Source: Aggregatibacter aphrophilus ATCC 33389 (GTDB lineage Bacteria; Pseudomonadota; Gammaproteobacteria; Enterobacterales; Pasteurellaceae). From it: DNA of 64,000 nt. The DNA lies in assembly GCF_900636915.1 (NCBI RefSeq), contig NZ_LR134327.1, forward strand, positions 2,108,001 through 2,172,000, written 5' to 3'. A program made the translations under genes and the position numbers. Below the pieces are notes generated by a model, which saw only the letters and a program-made list of their open reading frames with translations, did not search any database and was not told the DNA's origin. Positions within the stretch are counted from its first letter, which is position 1; each line of letters starts with the position of its first letter. Shown here one piece after another: positions 20,955 to 36,681 of this stretch.

Positions 20955-23576
20955 ATGAGTAATGTTGAAAATGCAGTAAGTCCTGCACAAGCAGAAGTGA
21001 ATGCTCTGGTTGAAAAAGGTTTGGTTGCGCTGAAAGAATTCCGCCAATTGAACCAAGAGCAGGTGAACTACATTGTGGCGAAAGCCTCTGTGGCGGCGCT
21101 GGATCAACATGGTGTGCTGGCGATGCACGCTTATGAAGAAACCGGGCGCGGCGTATTTGAGGATAAAGCGACCAAAAATTTATTCGCCTGTGAATATGTC
21201 GTTAACAATATGCGGCATTTAAAAACCGTCGGCGTAATAAGTGAAAATGATGTAACAGGCATCACCGAAATCGCCGATCCTGTGGGCGTCATCTGTGGGA
21301 TCACCCCGACAACCAACCCGACATCCACCGCCATTTTCAAGTCCCTCATTGCGCTAAAAACCCGTAACCCAATCATTTTTGCCTTCCACCCCTCCGCCCA
21401 ACAATCTTCCGCGCACGCCGCCCGCATTGTGTATGAAGCTGCTATTGCCGCCGGTGCGCCGAGAAATTGTATTCAATGGATCGAAAAACCATCTATGGAA
21501 GGCACATCCGCTTTAATGAAACACCCGGGCATCGCCACCATCCTTGCTACCGGCGGGAATGCCATGGTAGAAGCTGCTTATTCCTGCGGCAAACCGGCAT
21601 TGGGCGTCGGTGCAGGTAACGTGCCGGCTTATGTGGAAAAATCCGCCAACTTAAAACAAGCAGTGCACGACATCGTGATGTCTAAATCCTTCGATAACGG
21701 CATGGTGTGCGCCTCCGAACAGGCGGCCATCGTCGATGAAGAAATCTATAACGATTTTGTAAAAGAAATGCTTTCTTACGGCGTTTATATGGTGAACAAG
21801 AAAGAAAAAGCCATGCTGGAAGAATTCATGTTCGGCACAAAAGCCAACAGCAAGAACTATGGCGGCGCGAAACTGAATGCCAATGTGGTGGGTAAACCTG
21901 CCGCCTGGATTGCGGAACAGGCGGGCTTCAAAGTGCCACCGCGAACCAATATTCTGCTTGCCGAATGTAAAGAAGTGGGCGAAAAAGAGCCGCTAACCCG
22001 TGAAAAACTTTCTCCGGTACTGGCTTTAATTAAATCTACCTCCCGTGAAGACGGTCTTGAAAAAGCGGAACAAATGGTGGAATTCCACGGTTTGGGTCAC
22101 TCCGCCGCCATTCACACCTCCGATGCGGAGCTTGCCAAAGAATTTGGTAAACGGGTGAAAGCCATTCGCGTTATCTGGAACTCGCCTTCTACCTTCGGCG
22201 GTATCGGTGATGTGTATAACGCCTTCCTGCCTTCCCTTACGTTAGGTTGTGGTTCTTATGGTAAAAATTCCGTGGGCAACAACGTAAGTGCGGTCAATTT
22301 AATTAACATTAAACGAGTAGGCAGACGGAGAAACAATATGCAATGGTTTAAAGTGCCGTCAAAAATCTATTTTGAACGGGATTCAATTCAATATCTTCAA
22401 TCCATGGGCGGCATGGAACGCGTGGTCATCGTCACCGACCGTACCATGGTGGACTTAGGTTTCGTAGAAAAAATCGCCCACCAAATTACGGCTCGTGGCA
22501 ATCACGTAACCTACCAATTATTTGCCGATGTAGAACCGGATCCGTCCATTGAAACCGTACGCCGTGGTACGGAGTTAATCCGTAACTATAAACCGGATAC
22601 CATTATCGCCCTGGGTGGTGGTTCGGCAATGGATGCGGCAAAAGTGATGTGGTTATTCTATGAACAACCGGAAGTGGATTTCCGCGATTTGGTACAGAAA
22701 TTCATGGATATACGTAAACGCGCGTTTAAATTCCCGCAACTAGGTCGTAAAGCCAGATTTATCGGTATTCCGACAACATCCGGTACCGGTTCTGAAGTGA
22801 CACCGTTTGCGGTTATCACCGAAGGTAATAAAAAGTACCCGATTGCCGACTACTCGCTTACCCCGACCGTCGCCATTGTGGATCCGGCATTAGTGATCAC
22901 TGTACCGGCACATGTCGCCGCCGACACCGGCTTGGACGTATTAACCCACGCCACCGAAGCTTATGTATCCATTCTTGCTAGCGACTTCACCGATGGTCTT
23001 GCACTGCAAGCCATTAAACTGGTGTTTGAGTTCCTGGAAAAATCCGTGAACGAAAAAGATCCTGAAGCGCGCGAAAGAATGCACAACGCCTCCACCATGG
23101 CAGGTATGGCATTCGCCAATGCGTTTTTAGGGATGAACCACTCCCTTGCCCACAAAATCGGCGGGCGTTTCCATACACCACACGGACGCACCAACGCGAT
23201 TTTAATGCCGCACGTGATTCGTTATAACGGTACTCGTCCGGAAAAAACTGCTACGTGGCCGAAATATAATTACTACAAAGCAGATGTAAAATACCAAGAC
23301 ATCGCCCGTATGCTCGGCTTGCCTTGCAGCACACCGGAAGAAGGCGTACGTTCTTACGCCCAAGCCTGCTACGATTTAGCTGTGCGTTGTGGCATTAAGA
23401 TGTCTTTCAAAGAACAAGGCTTGGATGAAAAAGCGTGGATGGATGCCCGTCGTGATGTGGCACTGCTCGCCTTTGAAGACCAATGTTCCCCGGCAAACCC
23501 TCGTTTACCGATGGTAGAAGATATGCAAACGATTCTAACTCGAGCTTATTATGGGTATGATCCGAAGGATTATTAA
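20955..23576 (+). CDS. adhE: Bifunctional aldehyde-alcohol dehydrogenase AdhE
   Basis: Fermentative enzyme converting acetyl-CoA to acetaldehyde and ethanol with two NADH, 873 residues. The N-terminal half (about 1-440) is a CoA-acylating aldehyde dehydrogenase with catalytic Cys252 in SFDNGMVCASEQ. The C-terminal half (about 450-873) is an iron-dependent alcohol dehydrogenase with ALGGGSAMDAAK and the metal ligands in DVLTHATEA and NHSLAHKIGGRFHTPHGR. The enzyme forms long helical filaments (spirosomes) in E. coli. Ribosome-binding site TTAGGAGA lies just upstream. Monocistronic, with its own terminator. Confidence 0.97.
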   Translation: MSNVENAVSPAQAEVNALVEKGLVALKEFRQLNQEQVNYIVAKASVAALDQHGVLAMHAYEETGRGVFEDKATKNLFACEYVVNNMRHLKTVGVISENDVTGITEIADPVGVICGITPTTNPTSTAIFKSLIALKTRNPIIFAFHPSAQQSSAHAARIVYEAAIAAGAPRNCIQWIEKPSMEGTSALMKHPGIATILATGGNAMVEAAYSCGKPALGVGAGNVPAYVEKSANLKQAVHDIVMSKSFDNGMVCASEQAAIVDEEIYNDFVKEMLSYGVYMVNKKEKAMLEEFMFGTKANSKNYGGAKLNANVVGKPAAWIAEQAGFKVPPRTNILLAECKEVGEKEPLTREKLSPVLALIKSTSREDGLEKAEQMVEFHGLGHSAAIHTSDAELAKEFGKRVKAIRVIWNSPSTFGGIGDVYNAFLPSLTLGCGSYGKNSVGNNVSAVNLINIKRVGRRRNNMQWFKVPSKIYFERDSIQYLQSMGGMERVVIVTDRTMVDLGFVEKIAHQITARGNHVTYQLFADVEPDPSIETVRRGTELIRNYKPDTIIALGGGSAMDAAKVMWLFYEQPEVDFRDLVQKFMDIRKRAFKFPQLGRKARFIGIPTTSGTGSEVTPFAVITEGNKKYPIADYSLTPTVAIVDPALVITVPAHVAADTGLDVLTHATEAYVSILASDFTDGLALQAIKLVFEFLEKSVNEKDPEARERMHNASTMAGMAFANAFLGMNHSLAHKIGGRFHTPHGRTNAILMPHVIRYNGTRPEKTATWPKYNYYKADVKYQDIARMLGLPCSTPEEGVRSYAQACYDLAVRCGIKMSFKEQGLDEKAWMDARRDVALLAFEDQCSPANPRLPMVEDMQTILTRAYYGYDPKDY

Positions 23577-23598
23577 TTCCTCATTATGCCTTAACAAA

Positions 23599-23626
23599 AA
23601 AAGCCTAGAAATATTTCTAGGCTTTT
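23599..23626. terminator. Terminator after adhE
   Basis: AAAAGCCTAGAAA at 23599-23611 pairs with TTTCTAGGCTTTT at 23614-23626, a 13-bp perfect stem. T and A runs on both sides make it bidirectional, facing adhE and the oxidoreductase remnant. Confidence 0.9.
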
Positions 23627-23651
23627 CTTTTTCCACCCAAAGTGCGGTCAA

Positions 23652-23689
23652 AAAATCCAAAGGATTTTGAACGTTGGCTTTGCCAACGT
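23652..23689. repeat. Two adjacent perfect hairpins at the break of the truncated gene
   Basis: AAAATCC-AAA-GGATTTT (23652-23668) is followed two bases later by ACGTTGGC-TTT-GCCAACGT (23671-23689). Both are perfect with three-base loops. They sit exactly where the oxidoreductase homology ends. Confidence 0.75.
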
Positions 23690-24331
23690 CCTGCCCTAGT
23701 AAATACTGAGACATTTGAACAATATGCACGGCAAGATCGCCGAGTGCACCTAAACCGGCCTTTTCTTTCACACAGTGCCAATCCAATGGTGTATTTTTAT
23801 TAGCAAGATAATCTTCATTATGCGTACCATAAAAATGAATCACCTCACCAATTTCACCGTTTGCAATAATTTCTCTTGCTAATTGCGTTGTTGGTTTTTT
23901 TATATAATTGAACCCTACCAACGTTTTAACGCCCGCCTGTTTCGCCGCCTCATACATCAATTTGGCGTCAGTCGCGGTCAGTGCAAGTGGTTTTTCAGAA
24001 TAAACATGTTTACCATTGGCAATGGCGGCTAATGCGATTTCTTTATGAAGAAAATTAGGGGTGCATATATCTACGACATCCACATTCGGATCCTGCACAA
24101 TATCACGCCAATCGTCCGTAAAACGTTTAAATCCGAATTCTTTTGCTTTCTTTTCCGCTAACTCCGATGTGACTTCGGCCAAATATTCCAACACTAATTC
24201 GGCATCAAGCGAAAAAACCGTTGGTGCCTGCGCATAAGCAATTGCATGATAACGTCCGATATACCCTGTTCCGACTAAACCGATACGCACTTGTTTCATA
24301 CCCTATCCTTACCATTTATTGCATAAAATAA

Positions 24332-24389: not shown

Positions 24390-25898
24390 TTACAATGTAG
24401 GCATACTAAATGCCGCATTCTCAATCACATATTTATTCGGCCAACGTGTGGTGACGGTTTTCATCTTCGTGTAGAAACGAACACCGTCCGGACCATAAAC
24501 GTTCAACGTGCTGTAAGAAGAATGTTTCCAACCGCCAAAACAGTGGAATGACATCGGCACCGGAATCGGCACATTAATACCCACCATACCGGCTTGAACG
24601 TGATACGCAAATTCACGCGCCGCACCACCATCGGAGGTAAAGATTGCCGTACCATTTCCATAAGGATGTTCATTAATCAATTTCATCGCTTCTTCAAAAC
24701 TTTTCGCTCTGACAATACCAAGCACCGGACCAAAGATTTCTTCTTTATAAATCACCATATCGCCAGTTACATTGTCAAACAAGGAGCCACCAATAAAGAA
24801 ACCATTTTCATGACCTGCCGGTTTTTTACCCCGACCATCAACAACGAGTGTTGCGCCTTCTTCCACACCAGTTGTAATGTAATTCGTCACATTATTAAGA
24901 TGTTGTTGAGTAATTAACGGACCAAAGTCCATTTCTTTTTCACCGTCTTTCGGAATACCCGGACCATAACGAAGCGCTTCTACTTTCGGTTTTAAGGCCG
25001 CCACTAATTTATCTGCGGTTTCATCATCAATCGTCACAGCTAATGCCAGTGCCATACAACGCTCACCCGCTGCACCAAATGCGGCTCCCAACAAAGCGTT
25101 CGCCGTGGATTCAATATCCGCATCAGGCATAATCAATGCATGGTTTTTCGCCGCACCAAAAGTTTGCACGCGTTTGCCGAACTCGGAACCGACTTTATAT
25201 ACATGTGCCGCCGCCGGTGTAGAGCCCACAAAGCTCACTGCATGAACGCGCGGATCACGTAATAAAATTTCATTGTCATTACGGTCACCATGTACCACAT
25301 TAAATACACCATCAGGCAAGCCGGCTTCTTTTAGCAACTCAGCCAAACGAATGGACAAAGAAGGATCGGCTTTCGCCGGTTTTAAAATAAAGGTATTACC
25401 ACAGGCTAATGCAATCGGGAACATCCACATCGGCACCATTACTGGGAAATTAAATGGCGTAATACCTACAGTTACCCCTAATGGTTGTAAGGAAGAATGA
25501 ATATCAATGCCACGCCCTGCCTGCTCTGAAAATTCACCTTTCAATAAATGAGGAATACCGCATGAAAACTCCACCACTTCCAAACCACGTGTCAACTCAC
25601 CACAGGCATCGGAATAAACTTTACCATGTTCTTCAACAATTAAACGCGCCAATGAATCCCAATCTCTTTCCAATAATTCTTTAAATTTAAACATAATACG
25701 GGCACGACGTAGCGGAGAGGTCGCTGACCAATCGGCAAAGGCTTTATGCGCAACCTCAATCGCTTCATTGACATCATCAGGCGAACTCATGATCACTTGG
25801 CGAATTTGCTCGCCTGTTGCCGGATTATAAATCGGATGCGCTTTTGTCCCTCTGCTTGGCACTTGTTTACCATTAATAAAGTTATAAACAGTTTCCAT
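24390..25898 (-). CDS. iolA: Methylmalonate-semialdehyde dehydrogenase (CoA-acylating) IolA/MmsA
   Basis: Last step of inositol breakdown: malonic semialdehyde plus CoA and NAD+ to acetyl-CoA and CO2. The protein is 502 residues of the aldehyde dehydrogenase superfamily. It shows the oxyanion region TPFNFPVMVPMW, the cofactor loop FVGSTPAAAHVY, the catalytic cysteine in AAGERCMALALAV (near 285) and the typical C-terminal HCFGGWKHS segment. Start ATG 25898 follows AAGGAG on the minus strand. It is separated from the upstream transporter gene by 235 bp carrying its own operator and CRP-like site, so it has an independent promoter. Confidence 0.95.
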   Translation of the reverse strand: METVYNFINGKQVPSRGTKAHPIYNPATGEQIRQVIMSSPDDVNEAIEVAHKAFADWSATSPLRRARIMFKFKELLERDWDSLARLIVEEHGKVYSDACGELTRGLEVVEFSCGIPHLLKGEFSEQAGRGIDIHSSLQPLGVTVGITPFNFPVMVPMWMFPIALACGNTFILKPAKADPSLSIRLAELLKEAGLPDGVFNVVHGDRNDNEILLRDPRVHAVSFVGSTPAAAHVYKVGSEFGKRVQTFGAAKNHALIMPDADIESTANALLGAAFGAAGERCMALALAVTIDDETADKLVAALKPKVEALRYGPGIPKDGEKEMDFGPLITQQHLNNVTNYITTGVEEGATLVVDGRGKKPAGHENGFFIGGSLFDNVTGDMVIYKEEIFGPVLGIVRAKSFEEAMKLINEHPYGNGTAIFTSDGGAAREFAYHVQAGMVGINVPIPVPMSFHCFGGWKHSSYSTLNVYGPDGVRFYTKMKTVTTRWPNKYVIENAAFSMPTL

Positions 25899-26014
25899 TT
25901 TGAACTCCTTCTTATGATTTAAGAAATTAACATGCGATAAACGAATGGCAATTTACATAAAACAACGATGCTCATCACCCAAGGTAGCTATAGAGTAGGA
26001 AAATAAAATAAAAT

Positions 26015-26020
26015 TTTCAA
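26015..26020 (-). promoter_or_regulatory. Possible -35 box of the iolA promoter
   Basis: On the minus strand TTGAAA (26015-26020) is followed after 17 bases by TACTCT (25992-25997). It lies 17 bp downstream of the operator-like element. A TTGAAT has a similar position before the phosphatase gene. Confidence 0.4.
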
Positions 26021-26037
26021 ATCATTTTTATTTCATT

Positions 26038-26053
26038 TGAATTTTTTATTTCA
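26038..26053. promoter_or_regulatory. Candidate IolR operator upstream of iolA
   Basis: TGAAT-TTTTTA-TTTCA, a near-palindrome of the form TGAAW-N6-TTTCA, 140 bp from the iolA start. It is part of a 41-bp block repeated with two mismatches at 28436-28476. The RpiR-family regulator encoded at 29666-30508 is the natural candidate to bind it; that is inference. Confidence 0.6.
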
Positions 26054-26057
26054 TTTT

Positions 26058-26073
26058 TGTGATCTGTATCTGA
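26058..26073. promoter_or_regulatory. CRP-like site upstream of iolA
   Basis: TGTGA-TCTGTA-TCTGA matches 8 of 10 CRP consensus positions, five bases beyond the operator-like element. The identical sequence recurs at 28456-28471, which supports function. It would make inositol use subject to catabolite control. Confidence 0.5.
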
Positions 26074-26091
26074 TTTTACTCTGCAAAATAT

Positions 26092-26122
26092 AAAAGTGCG
26101 GTAAAAATCCACCGCACTTTTT
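26092..26122. terminator. Terminator after the OPA-type transporter gene
   Basis: AAAAGTGCGGT at 26092-26102 pairs with ACCGCACTTTT at 26111-26121, an inverted uptake-signal pair with an eight-base loop. It ends the minus-strand phosphatase-transporter unit. Confidence 0.8.
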
Positions 26123-26133
26123 GCCATTCATCA

Positions 26134-27477
26134 TTAATTCGTTATTCGTTTGGTTTGATAATACACGACGATAGCAAATAGAACGGATGCTAAAACAGAA
26201 CAAACATCTGCACCGACCCAGAAATAAGACAAGCTGTCAAAATCATAAATTTTCTTACCGGCCTCATTAATTACGGTCGTTTTATCCAACATAAATCCAG
26301 TCAAAAATTCCCCTGCTGCAGCCCCTGCATAACCGAAAACGCCCATCATACCTAGTGCTATGCCGGAAGCAGATTTATGGGAAATGTCTGTGGCCAACAA
26401 TCCACCTAAGAAGCACAATTGGATGCCAAGCGTAATACCAAATACGGAAAGGGCGATAATGGAGAACCAAGTATTGCCATTCGGTGCAAATAAAAACGCG
26501 GCTAAGGAAATCGCATTCAACAAACTGACACCGATGGTCATAATATTTCGCTTACCATGTAGGAAACGATCGGATAACCATCCTGAAACCACTGTTCCTA
26601 AAATACCGACGATACTGTTCACGCTAATGATGGATGCGGCTTCAATAGTGGTATAACCTTTTCCGTTTTCAAGGAAAAAAACGCCCCAACTGTTCACACC
26701 GTAACGGGCGATATACATACAACAAGAGGCAACCGCCAAAATCCAAATCGCCGGATTTTTTATGACGTCCCATTGGTGCTTTAACACTTCCTTATTATCA
26801 AAAACTTCATCTTTCGATTCGGTTTTAATAATCGGTTTATATCCACAAGATTCCGGTGAATCTTTCATAAACATAATGGTCACAAGCACGCCCAATAATC
26901 CGGCAATCCCTGCAAAATTGAACCCTGCACGCCAACCGAATGTGGTAATCACGGCAGCTGTGACAACAAAGGTAATGCCTTCACCAACATTATGAGCAAC
27001 AGACCAAAAACCATAATAGGAGCCGCGTTCTTTGTCATCATACCAACGGGATAATGCCACGACACAAGGCCCCACCCCCATAGATTGCACCCAGCCGTTG
27101 AAACCCCAAATAATGGTAAGCACAATCGCACTGGTGTTCATTCCCATGGCAAAGTTAGCAAGCGCAGAAAAAAACAATCCGACGGAAAAGAAACGAACGA
27201 TATTGGAATGGTCGGCCAAAGCGCTATTGACGAATTTACCGACAGCATAAGTAATAAAGGTTGCGGAACCGATAACCCCGAGTTCTGTTGGCGTTAAGAT
27301 TCCGTTATTCACCAAAATAGGTTTGGCTACGTTAAAAGATAAACGACAGACATAATAAATGGCATAAGCAAATGAAAACGCCCAAAAGCTTTTCATTCGA
27401 GTACTCTTAAACATTTTCTCCGTATAATCTTTCAAGGGGATTGCCGAACTGGCCTTAAAAAAGCTGAGAACTGACAT
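26134..27477 (-). CDS. MFS organophosphate:phosphate antiporter-like transporter
   Basis: Twelve-helix major facilitator of the OPA family (relatives: GlpT, UhpT, UhpC, PgtP), 447 residues. Family features are an N-terminal RMKSFWAFSFAYAIYYVCRLSFNVAKPILV resembling the GlpT/UhpT opening, GFNGWVQSMGVGPCVVALSRWYDDKERGSYYG after helix 4, and WRAGFNFAGI before the central loop. OPA members exchange a phosphorylated small molecule for phosphate. It starts 18 bp after the inositol monophosphatase-family gene, so the two are co-transcribed. Within an inositol cluster this suggests import of a phosphorylated inositol. A UhpC-like sensor role is less likely without uhpAB. Confidence 0.85.
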   Translation of the reverse strand: MSVLSFFKASSAIPLKDYTEKMFKSTRMKSFWAFSFAYAIYYVCRLSFNVAKPILVNNGILTPTELGVIGSATFITYAVGKFVNSALADHSNIVRFFSVGLFFSALANFAMGMNTSAIVLTIIWGFNGWVQSMGVGPCVVALSRWYDDKERGSYYGFWSVAHNVGEGITFVVTAAVITTFGWRAGFNFAGIAGLLGVLVTIMFMKDSPESCGYKPIIKTESKDEVFDNKEVLKHQWDVIKNPAIWILAVASCCMYIARYGVNSWGVFFLENGKGYTTIEAASIISVNSIVGILGTVVSGWLSDRFLHGKRNIMTIGVSLLNAISLAAFLFAPNGNTWFSIIALSVFGITLGIQLCFLGGLLATDISHKSASGIALGMMGVFGYAGAAAGEFLTGFMLDKTTVINEAGKKIYDFDSLSYFWVGADVCSVLASVLFAIVVYYQTKRITN

Positions 27478-27495
27478 ATAGCCTCCTTTCTACTT

Positions 27496-28299
27496 TCATT
27501 GTGTTTCATGTGAGTTTTTGATGTGATTTAGTCTTGTAAACACAGCTTCACTACAACAACCTAAAATATAATTTCCTTTTAATAAGCCATCATTTTCAAG
27601 GAAATTATTCACACATCCACCGGCTTCCTGAACAATAATAATAGCTGCACAAACATCCCAAGCATTAATGTGCGGTTCAAAATAGCCAATCAAACGACCT
27701 GCCGCCACATACACCAACATTAATGCGCCGGAACCATTGCGAATAAACATTCCGCCATCAAGTAAAATTTGATGTAGCACGGGAGTAAAAGTATTAGGAT
27801 GAACGCGGTGAGACACGCCTAATCCCATTAATCCTTCTTTTAATGAGGTGGAGGAGGAAACATGAATAGGATGATCATTAAGAAATGCCCCATCACCTTT
27901 CATTGCTCTGAATAACTCATTGTGGACGGGGTCAAAAATCACACCGGAGACAATCTGATTTTTGTGTAGAATTGCAATGGAAATGCACCAAGCATTTAAT
28001 CCATATAAAAATGGGCTGGTACCATCAATAGGATCCACTACCCAACAATATTCACAGGCTAAGTTTTCTGCACCGGATTCTTCTCCTAAAAAACCATCTT
28101 GCGGGAAATACTGTTTTAATGCGTCTTTAATTTTCGCTTCGACGGTTTTATCTGCAATACTAACTTGATCCTGCAAATCGCCTTTTTTACACTCGATTTT
28201 TAACTCCTTGCGATTAAGATAAAAATCCAGTGCAATTTTCCCAACTTCTTTGACTAACTCCTGAGAAAATAAATATCTATTTCGTAGTTCAATGTCCAT
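27496..28299 (-). CDS. Inositol monophosphatase family protein
   Basis: Predicted Mg2+-dependent phosphatase of the IMPase/SuhB family, 267 residues. The metal and catalytic motifs are present: GEESG (72-76), VVDPIDGTSPF (87-97; the usual second threonine is serine) and INAWDVCAA near 221, which binds the leaving phosphate. No signal peptide is seen, so it acts in the cytoplasm. It is the first gene of a unit with the OPA-type transporter, which lies 18 bp downstream. The pair would release free myo-inositol from an imported phosphate ester for IolG. It differs from a housekeeping SuhB mainly by context. Confidence 0.88.
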   Translation of the reverse strand: MDIELRNRYLFSQELVKEVGKIALDFYLNRKELKIECKKGDLQDQVSIADKTVEAKIKDALKQYFPQDGFLGEESGAENLACEYCWVVDPIDGTSPFLYGLNAWCISIAILHKNQIVSGVIFDPVHNELFRAMKGDGAFLNDHPIHVSSSTSLKEGLMGLGVSHRVHPNTFTPVLHQILLDGGMFIRNGSGALMLVYVAAGRLIGYFEPHINAWDVCAAIIIVQEAGGCVNNFLENDGLLKGNYILGCCSEAVFTRLNHIKNSHETQ

Positions 28300-28435
28300 A
28301 TATATTCTCCTGATTAATACATTGTTGTAGATTTACGGCTTAAGTTTATAAATTGAAATATTTCTCCTTGTTTATTTTACAGACAACCCACGTTAACCCT
28401 CCATTTTGGAAAATTCAATACATATAAATAAAAAA

Positions 28436-28451
28436 TGAATTTTTTGTTTCA
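28436..28451. promoter_or_regulatory. Candidate IolR operator between the phosphatase gene and iolB
   Basis: TGAAT-TTTTTG-TTTCA, the same element as at 26038-26053. It lies 137 bp from the start of the leftward phosphatase gene, nearly the same distance and orientation as its twin to iolA, and 104 bp from iolB to the right, so it could control both. Confidence 0.6.
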
Positions 28452-28455
28452 CTTT

Positions 28456-28471
28456 TGTGATCTGTATCTGA
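28456..28471. promoter_or_regulatory. CRP-like site between the phosphatase gene and iolB
   Basis: TGTGA-TCTGTA-TCTGA, identical to 26058-26073 and at the same spacing from the operator-like element. Confidence 0.5.
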
Positions 28472-28555
28472 TTTTAATGAAATCCTAGTAGATTAATTGA
28501 GCTAAGGGAGTATTATCCAAAGGGTTTATTGAGCTATTTATTTTAGGAGGACGCG

Positions 28556-29386
28556 ATGAGTTATTTACTATCCAAATCAAGAAAAGATCATCCCGAAAAA
28601 AACGGCGAAGTACAAAAAATCACACCCCAAACGGCCAATTGGGAGTACGTCGGTTTTGAAATGTACCACTTACAAAAAGACCAAGAACTCACCTTCGACA
28701 CAGAAAATACCGAGACTTGTTTTGTTTTGGTGGCAGGTAAAGCGACCGTGACGACTGCCCAAGCGACCTTTGAGCATATCGGAAATAGAGCCTCCCCGTT
28801 TGAACGGGTCCCACCTTATTCCGTGTATGTTCCACATCATCAACAGGTTCAAATAAAAGCGGAAAGCTATTTGGAACTGGCTGTTTGTCGTGCACCAAGT
28901 CAAGGCAATTTGTCGGTTCGTTTAATTGAACCGAAAGACGTGGGCGTGGAAAAACGGGGATATGGCAATAACAAGCGTTTAGTACATAATATATTGCCAG
29001 AGACCGAAACCGCAGACGCATTATTGGTCGTAGAAGTGTTTACTGATGAGGGCAATACCAGTTCATTTCCTAGCCATAAACATGATGATAAAAACTCTCC
29101 AACAGAAACCTATTTGGAAGAAACCTATTACCACCGTTTCTCGCCATCGCAAGGTTTTGCATTACAACGGGTCTACACTGACGACCGTTCATTAGATGAA
29201 TGTATGGCGGTATATGACGGCGATGTGGTTCAGGTACCGAGAGGTTATCATCCGGTCGCTACTATTGCCGGTTATGACAACTATTACTTAAACGTCATGG
29301 CGGGACCGGTCAGAAAATGGCGCTTTACTTGGGAACAGGATCACGCCTGGATCAACAGTGAAAAATACGCCGATAAATTCAAATAA
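28556..29386 (+). CDS. iolB: 5-deoxy-glucuronate isomerase IolB
   Basis: Converts 5-deoxy-glucuronate to 2-deoxy-5-keto-gluconate in inositol catabolism, 276 residues. It is a bicupin: metal-binding residues of the second cupin are in SFPSHKHDDKNSPTETYLEETYYHRF, and the C terminus carries QVPRGYHPVATIAGYDNYYLNVMAGP, typical of IolB. Start ATG 28556 follows TTAGGAGGA. It stands alone on the plus strand, divergent from the phosphatase-transporter unit and upstream of iolR. Confidence 0.96.
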   Translation: MSYLLSKSRKDHPEKNGEVQKITPQTANWEYVGFEMYHLQKDQELTFDTENTETCFVLVAGKATVTTAQATFEHIGNRASPFERVPPYSVYVPHHQQVQIKAESYLELAVCRAPSQGNLSVRLIEPKDVGVEKRGYGNNKRLVHNILPETETADALLVVEVFTDEGNTSSFPSHKHDDKNSPTETYLEETYYHRFSPSQGFALQRVYTDDRSLDECMAVYDGDVVQVPRGYHPVATIAGYDNYYLNVMAGPVRKWRFTWEQDHAWINSEKYADKFK

Positions 29387-29414
29387 CGAAAGTTTAAATC
29401 CATAAAATCGACTT

Positions 29415-29446
29415 AAAGTGCGGTCATTTTTTCCGGTATTTTTATG
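29415..29446 (+). repeat. Uptake signal with conserved tail
   Basis: AAAGTGCGGTCATTTTTTCC followed by GGTATTTTTATG. It lies in the 279-bp gap between iolB and iolR, which holds no other gene. A degenerate second signal (GACCGCTTTTTTT) is near 29591. Confidence 0.6.
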
Positions 29447-29665
29447 TAGTTTCACAAAGCTGAAATGACGATTGGTAACCTGTCTCATCCTGAGTAATAT
29501 CTGTGTTTGGGCAGCATAAAACTCATGCGTCGACAAGCTAAACAACTGTTTTGTGCATTTGCTACACAATACTGATTTTTTCAAGCCAAATGACCGCTTT
29601 TTTTCTTGAGGTTTTTAATCCATCTCTATAAGATCTAGAAATATTTATTTTATGGATATAACAAT

Positions 29666-30508
29666 ATGAAAGAAAAATCTCAATTAACCAATTTACAAAC
29701 AGAAATACAAACCCGCTACGACAGTTTAAGTAAAAGGCTTAAGCAGGTTGCTCAATACATTTTAGATAACAGCGATAGCATCGTTTTTGATACGGTCGCC
29801 ACGATTGCAGAAAAAGCAGATGTCCCTCCCTCTACACTAATCCGTTTTGCCGCCGAATTCGGTTTTTCCGGTTTTAACGAAATGAAACAAATCTTTCGCG
29901 AAAATCTCATGGAAAAAACGACAAATTACACAGAAAGGCTGCAACTTTCGCATAAAATCGCGCAATCGGAAGGGGAAGAATCGCCGGAAGATATTTTAAC
30001 AATCTTTTCGCAAGCCAATAGTCAGGCATTGCATCAGTTAGCAGAACAAACCACAAATGAACAAATTTATGCCGCCGCTAAGATACTAAAAGAAGCAAAT
30101 AATATCTTTATTATTGGGTTAAAGCGTTCTTTTAGCGCAGCTTGCTACCTTAACTATGCACTACATCATTTGGACTGTCGTGCTTTTTTAATCAACGGCT
30201 TAGGCGGCATGTTTGATGAGCAGCTTAGTCAGGTCAAAGAAGGGGATGTGGTCGTCGCGATTAGTTTCTCACCTTATGCGGCGGAAACCGTCAACATTAT
30301 GAACACCAGCGCCAAGAAAGGCGTTAAACAAATCGCTATCACCGACAGCCAAATCAGCCCGCTACTTGCGTTTAGCGATATCGCATTTGTGATAAAAGAA
30401 GCCCAGGTGCTGGGATTCCGTTCACAATGCTCTACCATGACGCTGGTTCAAACATTGGCAATTGTGTTGGGATTGGAAAAAGAGAAAGAAAAAGAGAAAA
30501 AACACTAA
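29666..30508 (+). CDS. iolR: RpiR-family transcriptional regulator, probable IolR
   Basis: Regulator of 280 residues. The N-terminal ~80 residues form the RpiR-type helix-turn-helix (RLKQVAQYILDNSDSIVFDTVATIAEKADVPPSTLIRFAAEFGFSGFNEMKQIF). The C-terminal half is a SIS sugar-phosphate-binding domain (NNIFIIGLKRSFSAACYLNYALHHL, then GDVVVAISFSPYAAETVNIM and KQIAITDS). A phosphorylated inositol-pathway intermediate is the likely effector, as in other IolR/RpiR regulators. It sits in the centre of the iol cluster and is the best candidate to bind the four TGAAW-N6-TTTCA elements. The C terminus is a lysine-glutamate repeat (EKEKEKEKK). Confidence 0.88.
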   Translation: MKEKSQLTNLQTEIQTRYDSLSKRLKQVAQYILDNSDSIVFDTVATIAEKADVPPSTLIRFAAEFGFSGFNEMKQIFRENLMEKTTNYTERLQLSHKIAQSEGEESPEDILTIFSQANSQALHQLAEQTTNEQIYAAAKILKEANNIFIIGLKRSFSAACYLNYALHHLDCRAFLINGLGGMFDEQLSQVKEGDVVVAISFSPYAAETVNIMNTSAKKGVKQIAITDSQISPLLAFSDIAFVIKEAQVLGFRSQCSTMTLVQTLAIVLGLEKEKEKEKKH

Positions 30509-30515
30509 GTAACAA

Positions 30516-30540
30516 AAAATGCCCCATGACGGGGCATTTT
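30516..30540. terminator. Bidirectional terminator between iolR and iolC
   Basis: AAAATGCCCC at 30516-30525 pairs with GGGGCATTTT at 30531-30540. It serves the converging iolR and iolC genes. Confidence 0.9.
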
Positions 30541-30550
30541 ACGTTTATGC

Positions 30551-32461
30551 TTATTTGCGGGCTTGCCACAGTTTAATTAATCTTCTGTATCTTTCGCCCA
30601 CTTCGGTAATCAACTCGTCATCCGTTAATTTTCCAGCAAGCCAGTCTGCCGATGGTTGTCCGAAAATGGTCCGTCCAACAGCAAAGCCTTTGACTAAAGG
30701 CGCACCTACTGATGCGTCAAATACGGCTTTGAATTGTTCTTCCGGCGCATCTAAACCTAAAATCAGAATACCACGACAGTATGGATCGTTTGTGCGAATC
30801 ACTTCACTGATATTCGCCCAGCCTTGTGCCGATACGCCCGGCAATTTCCACCAATCCGGTTTAATGCCTAACTGATAGAAGTGTGCGATGATGTCTGCAT
30901 AATATTGTTCGTTTTGTTCCATATCTGCAGGCAAAATCACTTCTAATAACAATTCATGACCGGTTCGACAGCAGGCTTGATACACCTGTTTTAAGGTTGA
31001 ATCCTGCTCCGCTTTCATTTCAGCACTGTCTTTCGGATGATAAAAGACCAAACATTTCACTACATGTTCTTGTGGCCAGCCGACTAATTGGCTACCTAAA
31101 TCACCGTGTTCCAAACGTAATGGACGGGAAGACGGCAATTCAATCGGACGTCCAATCCACCACTTTTTACCGGTAATTTCATTCAATGCGGCCTGTCCGA
31201 AAGTCGTATCCGCAAGAATCCCTGCCTGACCATCATAAATACCTTCTTCTTGCGCCGTTTTTTCCGCCGCCTGCAATAAAAGCTGTTTCAATTTAGGAAT
31301 CCGTTTGACATCCGCACCGTATTTTTTCGCCATATCGACCAGTTGCTTACGATGATCAAAGGCAAAAATACACAAGTTATCCCATTTGGCTTTTCGAGTA
31401 GTCACACGGTGTAAATGATTAAGTTGTTCATCCAAATCCGGACGAGGTACCGATTCTGCACGGGCAAGATAATTATCTAACTCCGCTTTGGTCGGCATTG
31501 CAGGAGCGCAACCGTGGCGGGAAACCACCAATGCTCCGCAAGCATTGGCATAACGACAAGACTGCTCCCAACCTTCATTATTGATGTAACCACGAATCAG
31601 CCCTGACATAAAGGCATCACCCGCACCAAGCACATTCAGCACTTCCACTCTGACGCCATAAACATTTAGTCCGCCGTCCAAATCATCAGGAATCTCACCT
31701 TCAAATACCGAGCAACCCAATGCACCACGTTTACAAACTAAAACGGCGTGGCTGAACTTACGCACGTTTTTAAGTGCGGTTAATGTATCTGTCGAACCGC
31801 CGGCAATATGGAATTCTTCTTCTGTTCCCACCAACACATCAAAATGGTGTAAGACTTCTTGCAATGATTTCGTCACCGCTTCCGAATCAATAAAACGGGT
31901 TTCTCCATCCCCTAAGGAGGTCAGTCCCCATAACACCGGGCGATAATCGATATCCAACAAACGTTTTGTGTTATTTCTGCCCGCATATTCCAACGCCGTC
32001 AACACCGCTTCTCTGGTTTTCGGGTGGGACAAATGCGTGCCGGTAATGGCTAAGGCTTTGGCGGAAGCAATATAGCTTTCATCAAAATCCGCTTTGGTAA
32101 TCGCCATATCGGCACAATTTTCGCGGTAAAAAATCAACGGGAAAGTATCCTGATCTTTAATGCCTAAAATCACAAGCCCGGTCAAACGTTCTTTATCCGT
32201 AATCAAATGGCTGGTATCCACTCCGACGCGTTGTAATTCCTCGCGTAAAAAACGTCCCATGTGCTCATCACCAACGCGTGCCAACATAGAAGATTTCACG
32301 CCTTGCACCGCCGTACCATAGGCCACATTACCGGAGGATCCGCCCAGATATTTGGAAAAAGAAGAAGCGTCCTCTAATCTGGCACCGATTTGTTGTGCAT
32401 AAAGATCAACAGCAACCCGACCAAGACAGATAAGGTCTAATGTTTTTTCTACCGTTTTCAT
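30551..32461 (-). CDS. iolC: IolC kinase fused to an IolJ-like (DUF2090) aldolase domain
   Basis: Two-domain protein of 636 residues. Residues 1 to about 330 are a PfkB-type 5-dehydro-2-deoxygluconokinase, with LGGSSGNVAYG near 40 and the catalytic loop NVLGAGDAFMSGLIRGY near 275. Residues from about 345 onward are a DUF2090 domain (FAFDHRKQLVDMAKKYG, GILADTTFGQAAL, FYHPKD, RGILILGLDAP). In other bacteria this domain is linked to the aldolase step that splits the phosphorylated product into dihydroxyacetone phosphate and malonic semialdehyde. No separate iolJ is present, so the fusion probably supplies both steps. Divergent from iolD, with an operator-like element 46 bp upstream. Confidence 0.93.
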   Translation of the reverse strand: MKTVEKTLDLICLGRVAVDLYAQQIGARLEDASSFSKYLGGSSGNVAYGTAVQGVKSSMLARVGDEHMGRFLREELQRVGVDTSHLITDKERLTGLVILGIKDQDTFPLIFYRENCADMAITKADFDESYIASAKALAITGTHLSHPKTREAVLTALEYAGRNNTKRLLDIDYRPVLWGLTSLGDGETRFIDSEAVTKSLQEVLHHFDVLVGTEEEFHIAGGSTDTLTALKNVRKFSHAVLVCKRGALGCSVFEGEIPDDLDGGLNVYGVRVEVLNVLGAGDAFMSGLIRGYINNEGWEQSCRYANACGALVVSRHGCAPAMPTKAELDNYLARAESVPRPDLDEQLNHLHRVTTRKAKWDNLCIFAFDHRKQLVDMAKKYGADVKRIPKLKQLLLQAAEKTAQEEGIYDGQAGILADTTFGQAALNEITGKKWWIGRPIELPSSRPLRLEHGDLGSQLVGWPQEHVVKCLVFYHPKDSAEMKAEQDSTLKQVYQACCRTGHELLLEVILPADMEQNEQYYADIIAHFYQLGIKPDWWKLPGVSAQGWANISEVIRTNDPYCRGILILGLDAPEEQFKAVFDASVGAPLVKGFAVGRTIFGQPSADWLAGKLTDDELITEVGERYRRLIKLWQARK

Positions 32462-32506
32462 AATGCAATTCCTTCTACTTAGTAAAATTGTTTCACCTAC
32501 ACAAAT

Positions 32507-32522
32507 TGAAACACATATTTCA
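32507..32522. promoter_or_regulatory. Candidate IolR operator upstream of iolC
   Basis: TGAAA-CACATA-TTTCA, perfect inverted arms, 46 bp upstream of iolC. The arms extend to TTGAAA and TTTCAA. Confidence 0.6.
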
Positions 32523-32684
32523 AAAAAATCAATATTGAAATTTAATTTTTTAGACCTTAATCACAAAACAGACATCATCCGATTTTCTATTCGGTATTTT
32601 ATGATTCATACTGTTAATAGGCTGTTTAAGTGTTTTTTAAAGATAAAATATAAATTCGGGAAAATTTGATCTATGTCTCAAAAA

Positions 32685-32700
32685 TGAAATTTTTGTTTCA
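32685..32700. promoter_or_regulatory. Candidate IolR operator upstream of iolD
   Basis: TGAAA-TTTTTG-TTTCA, perfect inverted arms, 71 bp upstream of iolD. Confidence 0.6.
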
Positions 32701-32770
32701 AAAATATTTAAAATTAAAAGAATGCTTATATACTGGTTTCAATGCTAGCTACCCGTAAAAGGAGATTCTG

Positions 32771-34717
32771 ATGAAAACCGTAAGACTTACTGTTGCACAA
32801 GCGCTTATAAAATTTCTTGATAATCAATATATCGAATTTGATGGCAAAGTAACAAAATTTGTTGAAGGTATCTTTGGTATTTTCGGTCATGGCAATGTGC
32901 TTGGAATCGGTCAGGCGTTGGAACAAGACAGTGGTGATCTGATTGTGTGCCAAGGACGTAATGAACAAGGCATGGCGCACGTGGCAATCGGCTTTGCCAA
33001 ACAAAATCTGCGTAAAAAAATTTACGCCTGCACCTCTTCCGTCGGTCCCGGCGCCGCCAACATGATTACTGCCGCCGCCACCGCAACCGCCAATCGCATT
33101 CCGCTTCTTCTTTTACCGGGTGATGTTTTCGCCACCCGCCAACCGGATCCGGTTTTACAACAAATCGAGCAATTTCATGATTTAAGCATCAGCACAAACG
33201 ATGCTTTCCGTGCCGTGAGCAAATATTGGGATAGAGTCAGCCGTCCGGAGCAACTGATGACCGCCTGCATTAACGCCATGCGGGTATTAACGGATCCGGC
33301 GGACACCGGCGCCGTCACCATCGCCCTGCCGCAAGACGTCCAAGCAGAAGCCTACGATTTCCCGGAATATTTCCTGCAAAAACGCATTCACAGCATTGAG
33401 CGCACGCTCCCTACCGAACCTATGTTGAAATCTGCCGTGGATTTGATTCTGAAGGCGAAAAAACCGTTAATTGTCTGCGGTGGCGGGGTGCGTTATTCCG
33501 AAGCGGCGGAGCAATTAAAACAGTTTGCCGAAACCTTCCAGATTCCTTTTGCCGAAACCCAGGCGGGAAAAAGTGCGGTCGTTTCCGTGCACGTTTTGAA
33601 CGTGGGCGGTGTAGGCGAGACCGGCTGTTTGAGCGCCAACCTGTTGGCAAAAGAAGCGGATCTGATTATCGGTATCGGCACGCGCTACACGGATTTCACC
33701 ACCTCCTCCAAATGGATCTTCCAACATCCGGATGTGAAATTCCTGAACATCAACGTTGCCCGTTTCGATGCCTATAAACTGGATGGCGTCCAAGTGGTTG
33801 CCGACGCCAAAGAAACGCTGGAAAAACTGACCGCACTTTTAGCACTGACGGGCTACCGTTACCGTGCCCAATGGGGCAACGCCGTTGCCGAAGCCAAAGC
33901 GCAATTTGCCCAAGAACTCCAACGGATTTATCACGTGGTTTACACCGAAACCAATTTCGTGCCGGAAGTGGACGATGCCTTGGATCGGGAAAAAGTTTAT
34001 GCGGAATTTATTAAATTGACCCAATCCCATCTGCCCCAAAGCCGCGTGTTAGGCATTCTCAATGAAACCTTGGGCGAAAACGACATTATCGTAGGCGCCG
34101 CGGGCAGCTTGCCGGGCGACTTGCAACGGGCATGGCAATCCAAGGGCGAAAACACTTACCATCTGGAATACGGCTACTCCTGCATGGGATATGAAGTGAA
34201 CGCCGCATTGGGCGCGAAATTGGCGCAACCGGAAAAAGAGGTTTATGCCTTATTGGGCGACGGTTCTTACATGATGCTCCATTCCGAACTGGTGACCTCC
34301 GTTCAGGAACATAAAAAAATCAACGTAATTTTATTCGACAACATGACAAACGGCTGTATTAACAATCTGCAAATCGGCAGTGGTATGGACAGCTTCGCCA
34401 CCGAATTCCGCTTCAGAAATCCGCAAACCAATAAATTAGACGGCGGATTCGTGCCCGTTGACTTTGCCATGAATGCGGCATCTTACGGTTGTAAAACCTA
34501 TAAAGTCACCACTGAAGAGGAATTACGCGCCGCCCTTGCCGATGCGAAAAAACAAACCATCTCTACGTTGATTGACATAAAAGTCTTGCCAAAAACCATG
34601 ATTCACGGCTACGGCAGCTGGTGGCACGTTGGCGTAGCAGAAGTGTCAGAAAAAGAAAAAATCCGCCAAGCGCATGAAAGCAGCGTGAAACACATTAACG
34701 AAGCAAGACGTTATTAA
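32771..34717 (+). CDS. iolD: 3D-(3,5/4)-trihydroxycyclohexane-1,2-dione hydrolase IolD
   Basis: Thiamine-diphosphate enzyme that opens the inositol ring to 5-deoxy-glucuronate, 648 residues. It has the three-domain layout of acetolactate-synthase relatives: an N-terminal PYR domain with [12 protein letters not shown], a central domain with [12 protein letters not shown], and a C-terminal ThDP domain whose motif runs from LLGDGSYMM to the NNLQIGSGM segment (about 490-540). It heads the plus-strand iolDEG operon. Two uptake signals lie inside the gene, so the cluster is adapted to this genome. Confidence 0.96.
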
Positions 34718-34771
34718 TCCGATTCAATTTATTATCTCCAATTTAACCACTCTGTTGAGAAGGAAAACACT

Positions 34772-35668
34772 ATGAAAGCTGAAAACGTGAAATTAGGTAT
34801 CGCGCCAATCGGTTGGACTAACGATGATATGCCTGATCTTGGCAAAGAGAATACCTTTGAACAATGTGTCAGTGAAATGGCACTTGCGGGTTTTACCGGA
34901 TGTGAAGTTGGAAATAAATATCCGCGCGACGTGGACGTGTTAAAACATAAGCTGGCTGTTCGCGGTATTCAAATTTGTAATGCGTGGTTCAGTACGTTTT
35001 TTGTCGATGGTAAAAAAGAGGAAACCATCAAAGAATTTATCAAACATCGTGATTTCCTCCATACCATGGGCGCCAAAGTGATCGGTTGTTCCGAACAAAG
35101 CCGTAGTATTCAAGGCACCACCAAAGCCGTGTTCAAAGAGAAAACCGTATTCACCGAAGAGGAATGGCAACGCCTCGCCGAAGGTTACAACGAACTTGCC
35201 AAACTTGCCGCCGAAAAAGGCATGAAAGTTTGCCTGCACCACCACATGGGCACCGGCATTCAAACCCCAGCAGAAATTGATAAATATATGGCGGTGGTTA
35301 ATGATGACGTGTATTTGTTATTCGATTCAGGTCACCTCTACTATTCTGAAGGCTCACAAAAAGCCATGCTGGATGTTTTGGAAAAATACATCGACCGCAT
35401 TTGCCACGTGCATTTGAAAGACGTGCGCGATAAAGTGGTCGCCGACGTAAAAGCCAATAATCTGAGCTTCCTGGAAGGCGTGCGTAAAGGCACCTTTACC
35501 GTGCCGGGCGATGGTGTGATTGATTTCAGACCGATTTTCGACATTCTCGAAAAACACAATTACAAAGGCTGGATGGTCGTTGAAGCGGAACAGGATCCGG
35601 CCATTGCCAATCCATTTGAATATGCCGTTAAAGGCCGTAAGTACATTAAAGAAACAGCGGGGATTTAA
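34772..35668 (+). CDS. iolE: 2-keto-myo-inositol dehydratase IolE
   Basis: Dehydrates 2-keto-myo-inositol (inosose) to the dione used by IolD, 298 residues. It is a xylose-isomerase-like TIM barrel. The N-terminal segment [18 protein letters not shown] is typical, and metal-site residues appear in [28 protein letters not shown] and [11 protein letters not shown] 34772 follows AGAAGGAA. It is 54 bp after iolD and 2 bp before iolG. Confidence 0.96.
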
Positions 35669-35670
35669 TC

Positions 35671-36681
35671 ATGATTAAAGTAGGCATTATCGGCGCCGGT
35701 CGTATCGGTCGCGTGCATTCCGAAAGCATCACAAAATATGTCAAAGGCGCTGAAATCAAAGCGATTTCCGATGTTCGCGTCACTGATGAACTCAAACAAT
35801 GGGCGAAAGACATGGGCATTCCACACGTTTATGAGGATTACAAACAAATTCTGCAGGATCCTGAAATTGACGCCGTGTTAGTGTGTTCTTCCACCAATAC
35901 CCACGCACCGATTTCTATTGAAGCCGCCCGTGCCGGCAAACACATTTTCTGCGAAAAACCGGTAGATGCCGATGTGAATCGCATTAAAGAAGTCTTGGCT
36001 GAAGTAGAAAAAGCCGGAGTGAAATTCCAAGTAGGTTTTAACCGTCGCTTTGACCATAACTTTAAAGCCATCAAGACCCGTGTAGAAAACGGCGACATCG
36101 GCGAACCGCACTTAATTCGCGTCACCTCTCGCGACCCGGACGCACCGCCTATTGAATACGTAAAAGTCTCCGGCGGGATGTTCTTCGACATGACTATCCA
36201 CGATTTCGATATGATCCGTTATTTATCCGGTAGCGAAGTGGTGGAAGTGTATGCCGCAGGCGGCGTGTTGGTGAATCCGGAAATCGGCAAAGCCGGCGAC
36301 ATTGACACCGCCGTCATCACGTTAAAACTCGCTAACGGTGCTATCGGTGTGATCGATAACAGCCGAAAAGCGGTTTACGGCTACGACCAACGGGCAGAAG
36401 TGTTCGGCTCCAAAGGCGCGGTACAAACCCGTAATGATACGGATTCTACCGCCGTGTATTCCTGTGAAGCCGGTGTTATCGCCGAAAAACCGAAATACTT
36501 CTTCTTAGAACGCTATATGCAATCTTTCGCCGATGAAATGGCGTGTTTTGTGGATTCCGTAGTGAACGACAAACCAACTTTAGTGAACGGCAATGACGGG
36601 TTACAACCTGTGATTATCGCACTTGCCGCCAAACGTTCTTTAGATGAAGGACGCCCGGTAAAACTGGCAGAAATTGCTTAA
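35671..36681 (+). CDS. iolG: Inositol 2-dehydrogenase IolG
   Basis: First enzyme of the pathway, oxidising myo-inositol to 2-keto-myo-inositol with NAD+, 336 residues. The N-terminal Rossmann fold reads KVGIIGAGRIGRVHSESI, followed by the family motif FCEKPVD with its conserved lysine near residue 97. The substrate domain contains DMTIHDFDMIRYLSG with the catalytic Asp/His pair near 170-175. It is full length, unlike the truncated relative at 23535-24299. Last gene of iolDEG. Confidence 0.95.
   Translation: MIKVGIIGAGRIGRVHSESITKYVKGAEIKAISDVRVTDELKQWAKDMGIPHVYEDYKQILQDPEIDAVLVCSSTNTHAPISIEAARAGKHIFCEKPVDADVNRIKEVLAEVEKAGVKFQVGFNRRFDHNFKAIKTRVENGDIGEPHLIRVTSRDPDAPPIEYVKVSGGMFFDMTIHDFDMIRYLSGSEVVEVYAAGGVLVNPEIGKAGDIDTAVITLKLANGAIGVIDNSRKAVYGYDQRAEVFGSKGAVQTRNDTDSTAVYSCEAGVIAEKPKYFFLERYMQSFADEMACFVDSVVNDKPTLVNGNDGLQPVIIALAAKRSLDEGRPVKLAEIA

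Follow-up and report, generated by a model that had tools for sequence, protein, structure and literature searches.

A complete myo-inositol catabolic cluster was found with gene calls and profile models at 23.5-36.7 kb of a 64,000-nucleotide stretch of the Aggregatibacter aphrophilus ATCC 33389 genome (contig NZ_LR134327.1, positions 2,108,001 to 2,172,000; hereafter, the window). Between its divergent iolB and iolA genes, the cluster carries two minus-strand genes, one for a phosphatase of the inositol monophosphatase family and one for an MFS antiporter of the OPA family. On the basis of sequence comparisons, we consider it reasonably probable that the two genes serve the inositol regulon as an accessory module for the import of inositol monophosphate. 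The antiporter would swap cytoplasmic phosphate for periplasmic inositol monophosphate, the phosphatase would release myo-inositol inside the cell, and the enzymes from IolG to IolA would then burn the freed myo-inositol, while an RpiR-type regulator would control the module and the iol genes jointly. Some relatives encode a further permease and a cytosolic enzyme resembling phosphatidylinositol-specific phospholipase C (PI-PLC), through which glycerophosphoinositol could feed the same route. The substrate of the antiporter may be inositol 1-phosphate, another monophosphate or glycerophosphoinositol.

Gene content of the cluster and search for inositol importers

The initial annotation of the window had described a full enzyme set from IolG to IolA, and indeed IolG, IolE, IolD, IolB, IolC and IolA all scored above their NCBIfam cut-offs (Table 1). 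It had also placed the antiporter gene 18 bp after the phosphatase gene and named the antiporter as the only transporter of the cluster: the gap (27477 to 27496), the coordinates and the strands were confirmed, and Pfam and NCBIfam profile scans found no other transporter among the nine genes of 24390-36681. Its further claim, that the cluster is built around a phosphorylated-inositol route, did not hold, as four congeners also keep an ABC importer and 41 of the 58 IolE-positive genomes of the family survey presented below lack the pair. The phosphatase-antiporter pair is accessory to the inositol cluster, not its core.

In the four congeners, the region past gfo2, a dehydrogenase gene, encodes a sugar-type ABC system made up of two periplasmic binding proteins, an ATPase and a permease. 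Similar ABC genes are present in two other genomes (G072 and G082) and likewise, with one binding protein, in G022. Judging from gene position, the congener importer probably takes free inositol. In the window gfo2 is truncated and these genes are gone; the window would thus have lost a probable free-inositol importer, and therefore the OPA protein is the sole transporter left in the cluster.

An IolT-like sugar porter lies at the iol cluster of G041 (Pfam-tested) and, by N-terminal resemblance only, of G097 and G138. In the A. aphrophilus genome itself, we found no such porter among six PF00083 rows, the best of which reached 80.2 bits (332 for the G041 porter) and was nearest to the aromatic-acid family. 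No inositol binding protein was apparent among the six PF13407 rows, which, by their N-termini and neighbours, appear to be Mgl and Lsr binding proteins and LacI-type regulators, and the SSF (PF00474) search gave two rows, PanF and PutP, with no inositol symporter. The initial annotation had reasoned that a separate inositol permease elsewhere in the genome would undermine its proposal: an ordinary importer of the PF00083, PF13407 or SSF families is not supported, while an IolF-like or unusual MFS permease is possible, several of the 18 MFS_1 rows being unclassified.

The OPA antiporter

The antiporter matches MFS_1, and its six best NCBIfam matches are OPA models (PgtP, UhpC, GlpT twice, UhpT and PgtP), all below cut-off; with TIGR00881 it scored 245.8 bits, below the cut-off of 407.75. 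A plain GlpT, UhpT or PgtP identity was rejected (scores/cut-offs of 213.5/632.55, 165.6/497 and 156/750, respectively), and the genome encodes PgtP-like and UhpC-like paralogs elsewhere, as well as a GlpT-like one (L031; 603.1 bits, cut-off 632.55). The closest solved structure is GlpT (1pw4, E 2.5e-48). Residues Y38, Y42, R45, K81, H162 and R258 are invariant in 17/17 orthologs of an alignment from which two broken copies were excluded, and we take their counterparts to surround the phosphate in GlpT. Both the similarity to GlpT, PgtP and UhpC and the GlpT-type phosphate-binding residues place the protein in the OPA family.

In a tree of 36 rows, which calls for caution about long branches, ten Pasteurellaceae proteins grouped in a single clade. 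Nine Bacteroidota proteins lie next to it, and the GlpT-like, PgtP-like and UhpC-like paralogs of the A. aphrophilus genome fall elsewhere. The window antiporter is 99% identical to its A. kilianii PN_528 counterpart. Against three congener loci, dN/dS was low, at 0.011-0.026 for the antiporter gene (dS about 1 or above) and 0.047-0.065 for the phosphatase gene. The family matches, the invariant residues and the tree position give the protein the look of a functional phosphate-ester antiporter.

The OPA gene adjoining iolC in G138 passes the GlpT model (812.1 bits). We also set aside 14 antiporter matches outside Pasteurellaceae (37-40% identity), obtained from a sample of 394 genomes of a larger order with at most four candidates scored per genome; no phosphatase gene was seen in the short stretches displayed, which included the OPA open reading frame (ORF) in 12/14.

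The phosphatase

With PF00459 the phosphatase scored 185.7 bits (cut-off 27), which makes it a member of the family, and the genome holds two more PF00459 proteins, SuhB and CysQ. None of the NCBIfam models reached its cut-off with the window phosphatase. The SuhB-type equivalog NF008027 (cut-off 332) gave 129.4 bits for the window phosphatase and 428 bits for SuhB (L186). The metal-site motifs EES and DPIDGT are present in the window protein and in 17 of its 18 relatives, the 18th copy being broken, and the stretch of the third metal ligand reads EPHxNxWD, or nearly so, in 16 of the 18 (the exceptions are L071 and the broken L072). The Glu six residues before the Trp presumably occupies the position of Glu213 of human IMPase, which we take to touch inositol. 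The same genome also encodes an Agp-like histidine acid phosphatase (L027:5791-7110), with 398.7 bits for the glucose-1-phosphatase/inositol phosphatase model (cut-off 425).

Distribution of the pair among Pasteurellaceae

We surveyed 140 Pasteurellaceae genomes, accepting antiporter matches with E up to 1e-60 and iolE over its model cut-off. An antiporter match was found in 19 genomes, and in 19/19 its gene is immediately preceded, in the same orientation, by a phosphatase gene. Among 18 relatives of the window pair, the two genes are 10-40 bp apart in 16 and have overlapping called starts in two. IolE was found in 58 of the 140 genomes, namely in 17/19 pair carriers and 41/121 others (Fisher p 5e-6). 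A permutation inside seven genera, with genus membership taken from result tables, also gave a low p-value (1.2e-4); it left outside G085, which has no IolE and is the sole member of its genus. A survey of this kind had been proposed in the initial annotation, and it showed that the pair associates with iolE across the family.

In Aggregatibacter the pair is present in 5/5 IolE-positive genomes and 0/4 IolE-negative ones; these counts are not independent, because the pair and the iol genes are neighbours there and could be lost together. Outside this genus, the pair was never observed within the iol core: it is found either on a different contig or at a distance above 180 kb, and it often adjoins atp, pfkA or mnmE genes (recognized by eye). 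G072 (genus g21) has cluster proteins that share 93-99% identity with the Aggregatibacter query proteins, and its divergent iolB and iolA genes are separated by an interval that holds no ORF of at least 120 aa. The pair occupies this interval in Aggregatibacter, where the promoter element has been duplicated. Both the OPA and the phosphatase genes are broken in Actinobacillus seminis (L072), and in Avibacterium paragallinarum (L066) the OPA gene is apparently broken; iolE is kept in both species.

A palindrome common to the pair and the iol genes

The palindrome TGAA-N8-TTCA (TGAAA-N6-TTTCA) occurs once upstream of iolA, once in the interval that separates the phosphatase gene from iolB, and at two places in the iolC-iolD intergenic region. 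The iolA element and the pair element are identical in 39/42 bases, CRP-like site included. The pattern count in the window is weak when taken alone (5 matches versus 2.07 expected, with 4/100 shuffles reaching 5). Across the family, 22/22 iolD and 14/14 iolC upstream regions exceeded the 95th percentile of a first set of controls, many of these sites being in the training set. The top five of that control included promoters that also serve iol genes; the repeated one excludes iol neighbours, and for it the matrix was trained on iol sites only and 156 control upstream regions were scored, with a maximum of 10.8.

In the repeated scoring, the region upstream of the window pair reached 14.6 and that of the congener G015 reached 12.3. 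Pairs located away from the iol genes scored 20.6 (G011), 15.6 (G133), 14.2 (G114), 13.6 (G024 and G022) and 12.6 (G026); as G022, G024 and G026 represent one genus and one locus, the above-control pairs away from iol span four genera. A palindrome common to the iol genes and the pair, as expected for an IolR regulon, is thus found in the window and in these four genera. The site is lacking in the two carriers without IolE (1.6 in G132 and 0.6 in G085), and the iol-trained matrix detected no operator before the decayed pair of G012. The pattern of candidate sites is, with gaps, what co-regulation by the inositol regulator predicts, and the RpiR-type protein of the cluster would bind them. A related palindrome, GGAA-N6-TTCC, belongs to the inositol regulon of C. 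crescentus, according to the part of PMC2597717 consulted.

Evidence against inositol monophosphate uptake and alternative substrates

Several observations weigh against the import of inositol monophosphate by the pair. The phosphatase is nearer to HisN (150.1 bits) than to inositol-1-monophosphatase (129.4), passing neither cut-off, and the 41 IolE-positive genomes that do without the pair count here as well. Two carriers of the pair, G132 and G085, have no IolE over cut-off: as judged by eye, the pair adjoins a glpABC-like operon in the former and is flanked by gal-like and mgl-like genes in the latter. The OPA gene is broken in G012 and G025 while IolE is kept, and in G012 the phosphatase gene is broken too. 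Regarding the predicted operator, G016 and G018 scored 10.7, G028 9.8, and G017 and G025 8.7, values each exceeded by 2/156 controls; G016, G017 and G018 are congeners of the window, and G028 and G025 belong to the genus of G022. Scores were marginal in G051 (10.1) and G052 (7.2), and G043 has no operator (-5.1). A last point against, the genes that precede the antiporter in Bacteroidota, is given below.

Outside Pasteurellaceae, the closest relatives of the antiporter are from Bacteroidota (27/42 loci), with 40-52% identity, mostly 46-50%. No phosphatase gene was found within four genes of the antiporter in the 25 displayable Bacteroidota loci. Among the five loci tested, a GDPD gene precedes the antiporter gene in three (L140, L148 and L162), a context that fits glycerol 3-phosphate too, while the preceding gene encodes a GH3 protein in L158 and a TIM-barrel/NAGPA fusion in L157. 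Since glycerol 3-phosphate is the usual product of GDPD, this compound may have been the ancestral substrate of the antiporter. Together, the GDPD+DUF4996 proteins (three loci), the GH3 protein and the TIM-barrel/NAGPA fusion may mark loci for phosphodiester utilisation.

The antiporter might then be a further glycerol-phosphate transporter, with a phosphatase acting on glycerol phosphates and a position in the iol cluster due to accidental history. The GDPD neighbours, the glpABC-like operon beside the pair in G132 and the fact that the best solved relative is GlpT would all agree with this. Nevertheless, the genome already has the GlpT-like L031 in addition to PgtP-like and UhpC-like paralogs, and the window protein falls in its own clade away from them, in a tree weakened by long branches. 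Moreover, a phosphatase is superfluous for the use of glycerol 3-phosphate, and the co-occurrence with iol genes and the common operator also speak against this explanation, which we consider unlikely. Because of the Bacteroidota GDPD context and of the two carriers without IolE, our confidence in the import of inositol monophosphate is kept at a moderate level.

It is very unlikely, in our opinion, that the pair handles some other phosphorylated sugar or polyol, such as a hexose phosphate or the phosphate of another inositol isomer, and is merely co-regulated with iol. The gal-like and mgl-like genes around the pair in G085 would be coherent with such a role, as would the phosphatase falling in no curated subfamily, but IolE accompanies the pair in 17 of 19 carriers and the operator was found only with IolE-positive ones.

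PI-PLC and permease genes in relatives

In G017, G051 and G052, the pair is followed by genes for an MFS protein, which is below all curated cut-offs, and for a PI-PLC (Pfam X domain), whose best PDB match is 1aod, a PI-PLC (E 3.1e-24). G082, where no antiporter ortholog was found, has both genes within its iol cluster, and in G016 they come after a phosphatase-like fragment on another contig. In total, PI-PLC is present in 5/140 genomes, all five IolE-positive. Residues His29, Asp30, Arg62, His71 and Asp263 are invariant in the five sequences, and we take these positions to be catalytic. The enzymes align with the solved bacterial PI-PLCs 1aod and 1gym, presumably of Listeria and Bacillus, and keep the same His/Asp/Arg positions; they differ from them in that the permease gene is adjacent in 5/5 and no signal peptide is visible in 5/5 (hydrophobicity scan of the first 40 residues). 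No good operator was detected upstream of the PI-PLC/permease unit (G017, G051 and G052 negative; 7.0 in G082).

The proximity of the genes for a permease and a cytosolic PI-PLC suggests that these cells could take up glycerophosphoinositol and cut it inside to inositol phosphate, the presumed substrate of the phosphatase. Alternatively, the antiporter itself could import this diester, with an internal phosphodiesterase freeing the inositol phosphate before the phosphatase acts. The compound is released by mammalian cells, as stated in the portion of PMC3725514 consulted, and a PI-PLC without visible signal peptide does adjoin the pair in G017, G051 and G052. However, PI-PLC was not found in 135/140 genomes of the family, that of the window included, and all five PI-PLCs have their own adjacent permease, a better fit for the diester. 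Furthermore, known OPA substrates are phosphate monoesters, and diester import by the antiporter appears quite improbable to us.

The initial annotation had proposed the import of a phosphorylated inositol and its dephosphorylation: the proposal gained support from the family-wide co-occurrence, from the common predicted operator and from the PI-PLC association in some relatives, while the substrate and its host source are what we infer. More tentatively, Pasteurellaceae could possess a modular, IolR-controlled scavenging of host phosphoinositide breakdown products, in which the antiporter and the phosphatase would handle inositol monophosphate, an undescribed MFS permease and a cytosolic PI-PLC would handle glycerophosphoinositol, and both would lead to iol. 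If true, this would represent the first bacterial route for the uptake of phosphorylated inositols and a PI-PLC used intracellularly for nutrition.

Comparison with known systems

Canonical iol clusters with the IolT symporter or the IbpA/IatAP ABC importer, such as those of C. crescentus and S. meliloti (PMC2597717, part consulted), have in common with the window a complete enzyme set, an RpiR-type regulator and a palindromic operator. Unlike the clusters described there, that of the window has no free-inositol importer, and the genes that carry the common promoter element are instead those of a phosphate-ester antiporter and of a phosphatase. The pair is conserved and probably constitutes an inositol-linked module for phosphate-ester uptake, combining a variant iol cluster with a variant OPA transporter. 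If so, some Pasteurellaceae would gain carbon and phosphate from phosphorylated inositols that are closed to free-inositol importers, the OPA family would extend to a new class of substrates, and the lack of an inositol permease in an iol cluster would be explained. The module also yields a cheap and specific prediction, with a named operator, two genes and a substrate.

Among the literature matches listed, which are mostly outside subscription journals, no title or abstract start mentioned a bacterial importer of inositol phosphate or glycerophosphoinositol, a weak absence. The main text of a survey of iol clusters (PMC9430895) gave no hit, in a term search, for Pasteurella, Aggregatibacter, Haemophilus or phosphatase. 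A review on gut inositol metabolism presents, in the part consulted, iolT as the uptake route and phytate as unable to cross bacterial membranes (PMC12482443).

Glycerophosphoinositol transport by yeast Git1 and mammalian Glut2, together with GDE3, likewise couples membrane transfer and breakdown of a phosphorylated inositol derivative (PMC3725514, part consulted). The same part describes GDE3 as an ectoenzyme converting glycerophosphoinositol to inositol phosphate and glycerol; given the release of the former, both substrates could therefore occur at host surfaces. In contrast to the module of the window, Git1, Glut2 and GDE3 are eukaryotic. We know of no link between them and iol catabolism. 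The OPA antiporters GlpT, UhpT, PgtP and SLC37A4 have the fold family, as judged by sequence, and the phosphate-binding residues in common with the window protein, which differs from them in its separate clade, its scores below all curated cut-offs, its pairing with a phosphatase and its tie to inositol catabolism.

Table 1. Features of the inositol cluster in the window and permease/PI-PLC units of relatives (L, locus)
Feature	Coordinates	Strand	Basis or remark
Truncated Gfo/Idh/MocA dehydrogenase gene (gfo2, levoglucosan-dehydrogenase-like); 3' end and subsequent congener ABC genes gone	23535..24299	-	Model scan, congener comparison
Deletion junction; about 5.4 kb of L128 (A. kilianii PN_528) absent in the window	23688..23689	.	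BLAST
iolA, methylmalonate/malonate-semialdehyde dehydrogenase (IolA-type MMSDH)	24390..25898	-	TIGR01722, 644 bits (cut-off 448.5)
Predicted operator TGAA-N8-TTCA before iolA, next to CRP-like TGTGATCTGTATCTGA	26038..26053	.	Pattern search
OPA-family MFS antiporter, 447 aa, predicted importer of phosphorylated inositol	26134..27477	-	GlpT 1pw4, E 2.5e-48
Inositol-monophosphatase-family phosphatase, 267 aa, upstream partner of the OPA gene	27496..28299	-	PF00459
Predicted operator between phosphatase gene and iolB	28436..28451	.	Pattern search and comparison with iolA element
iolB, 5-deoxy-glucuronate isomerase	28556..29386	+	TIGR04378, 335.9 bits (cut-off 205)
RpiR-family regulator, presumed IolR	29666..30508	+	HTH_6 and SIS domains
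iolC kinase fused to DUF2090 aldolase	30551..32461	-	NF047869, 890.1 bits (cut-off 600)
Predicted operator, iolC side of iolC-iolD divergent promoter	32507..32522	.	Pattern search
Predicted operator, iolD side of iolC-iolD divergent promoter	32685..32700	.	Pattern search
iolD	32771..34717	+	TIGR04377, 975.7 bits (cut-off 715)
iolE	34772..35668	+	TIGR04379, 403.5 bits (cut-off 290)
iolG, inositol 2-dehydrogenase	35671..36681	+	TIGR04380, 489.3 bits (cut-off 355)
MFS permease and PI-PLC units	L055:7248-9474, L068:10694-12884, L069:10634-12868, L108:8360-10605, L109:5421-7664		Five Pasteurellaceae genomes; L108 apart from inositol genes

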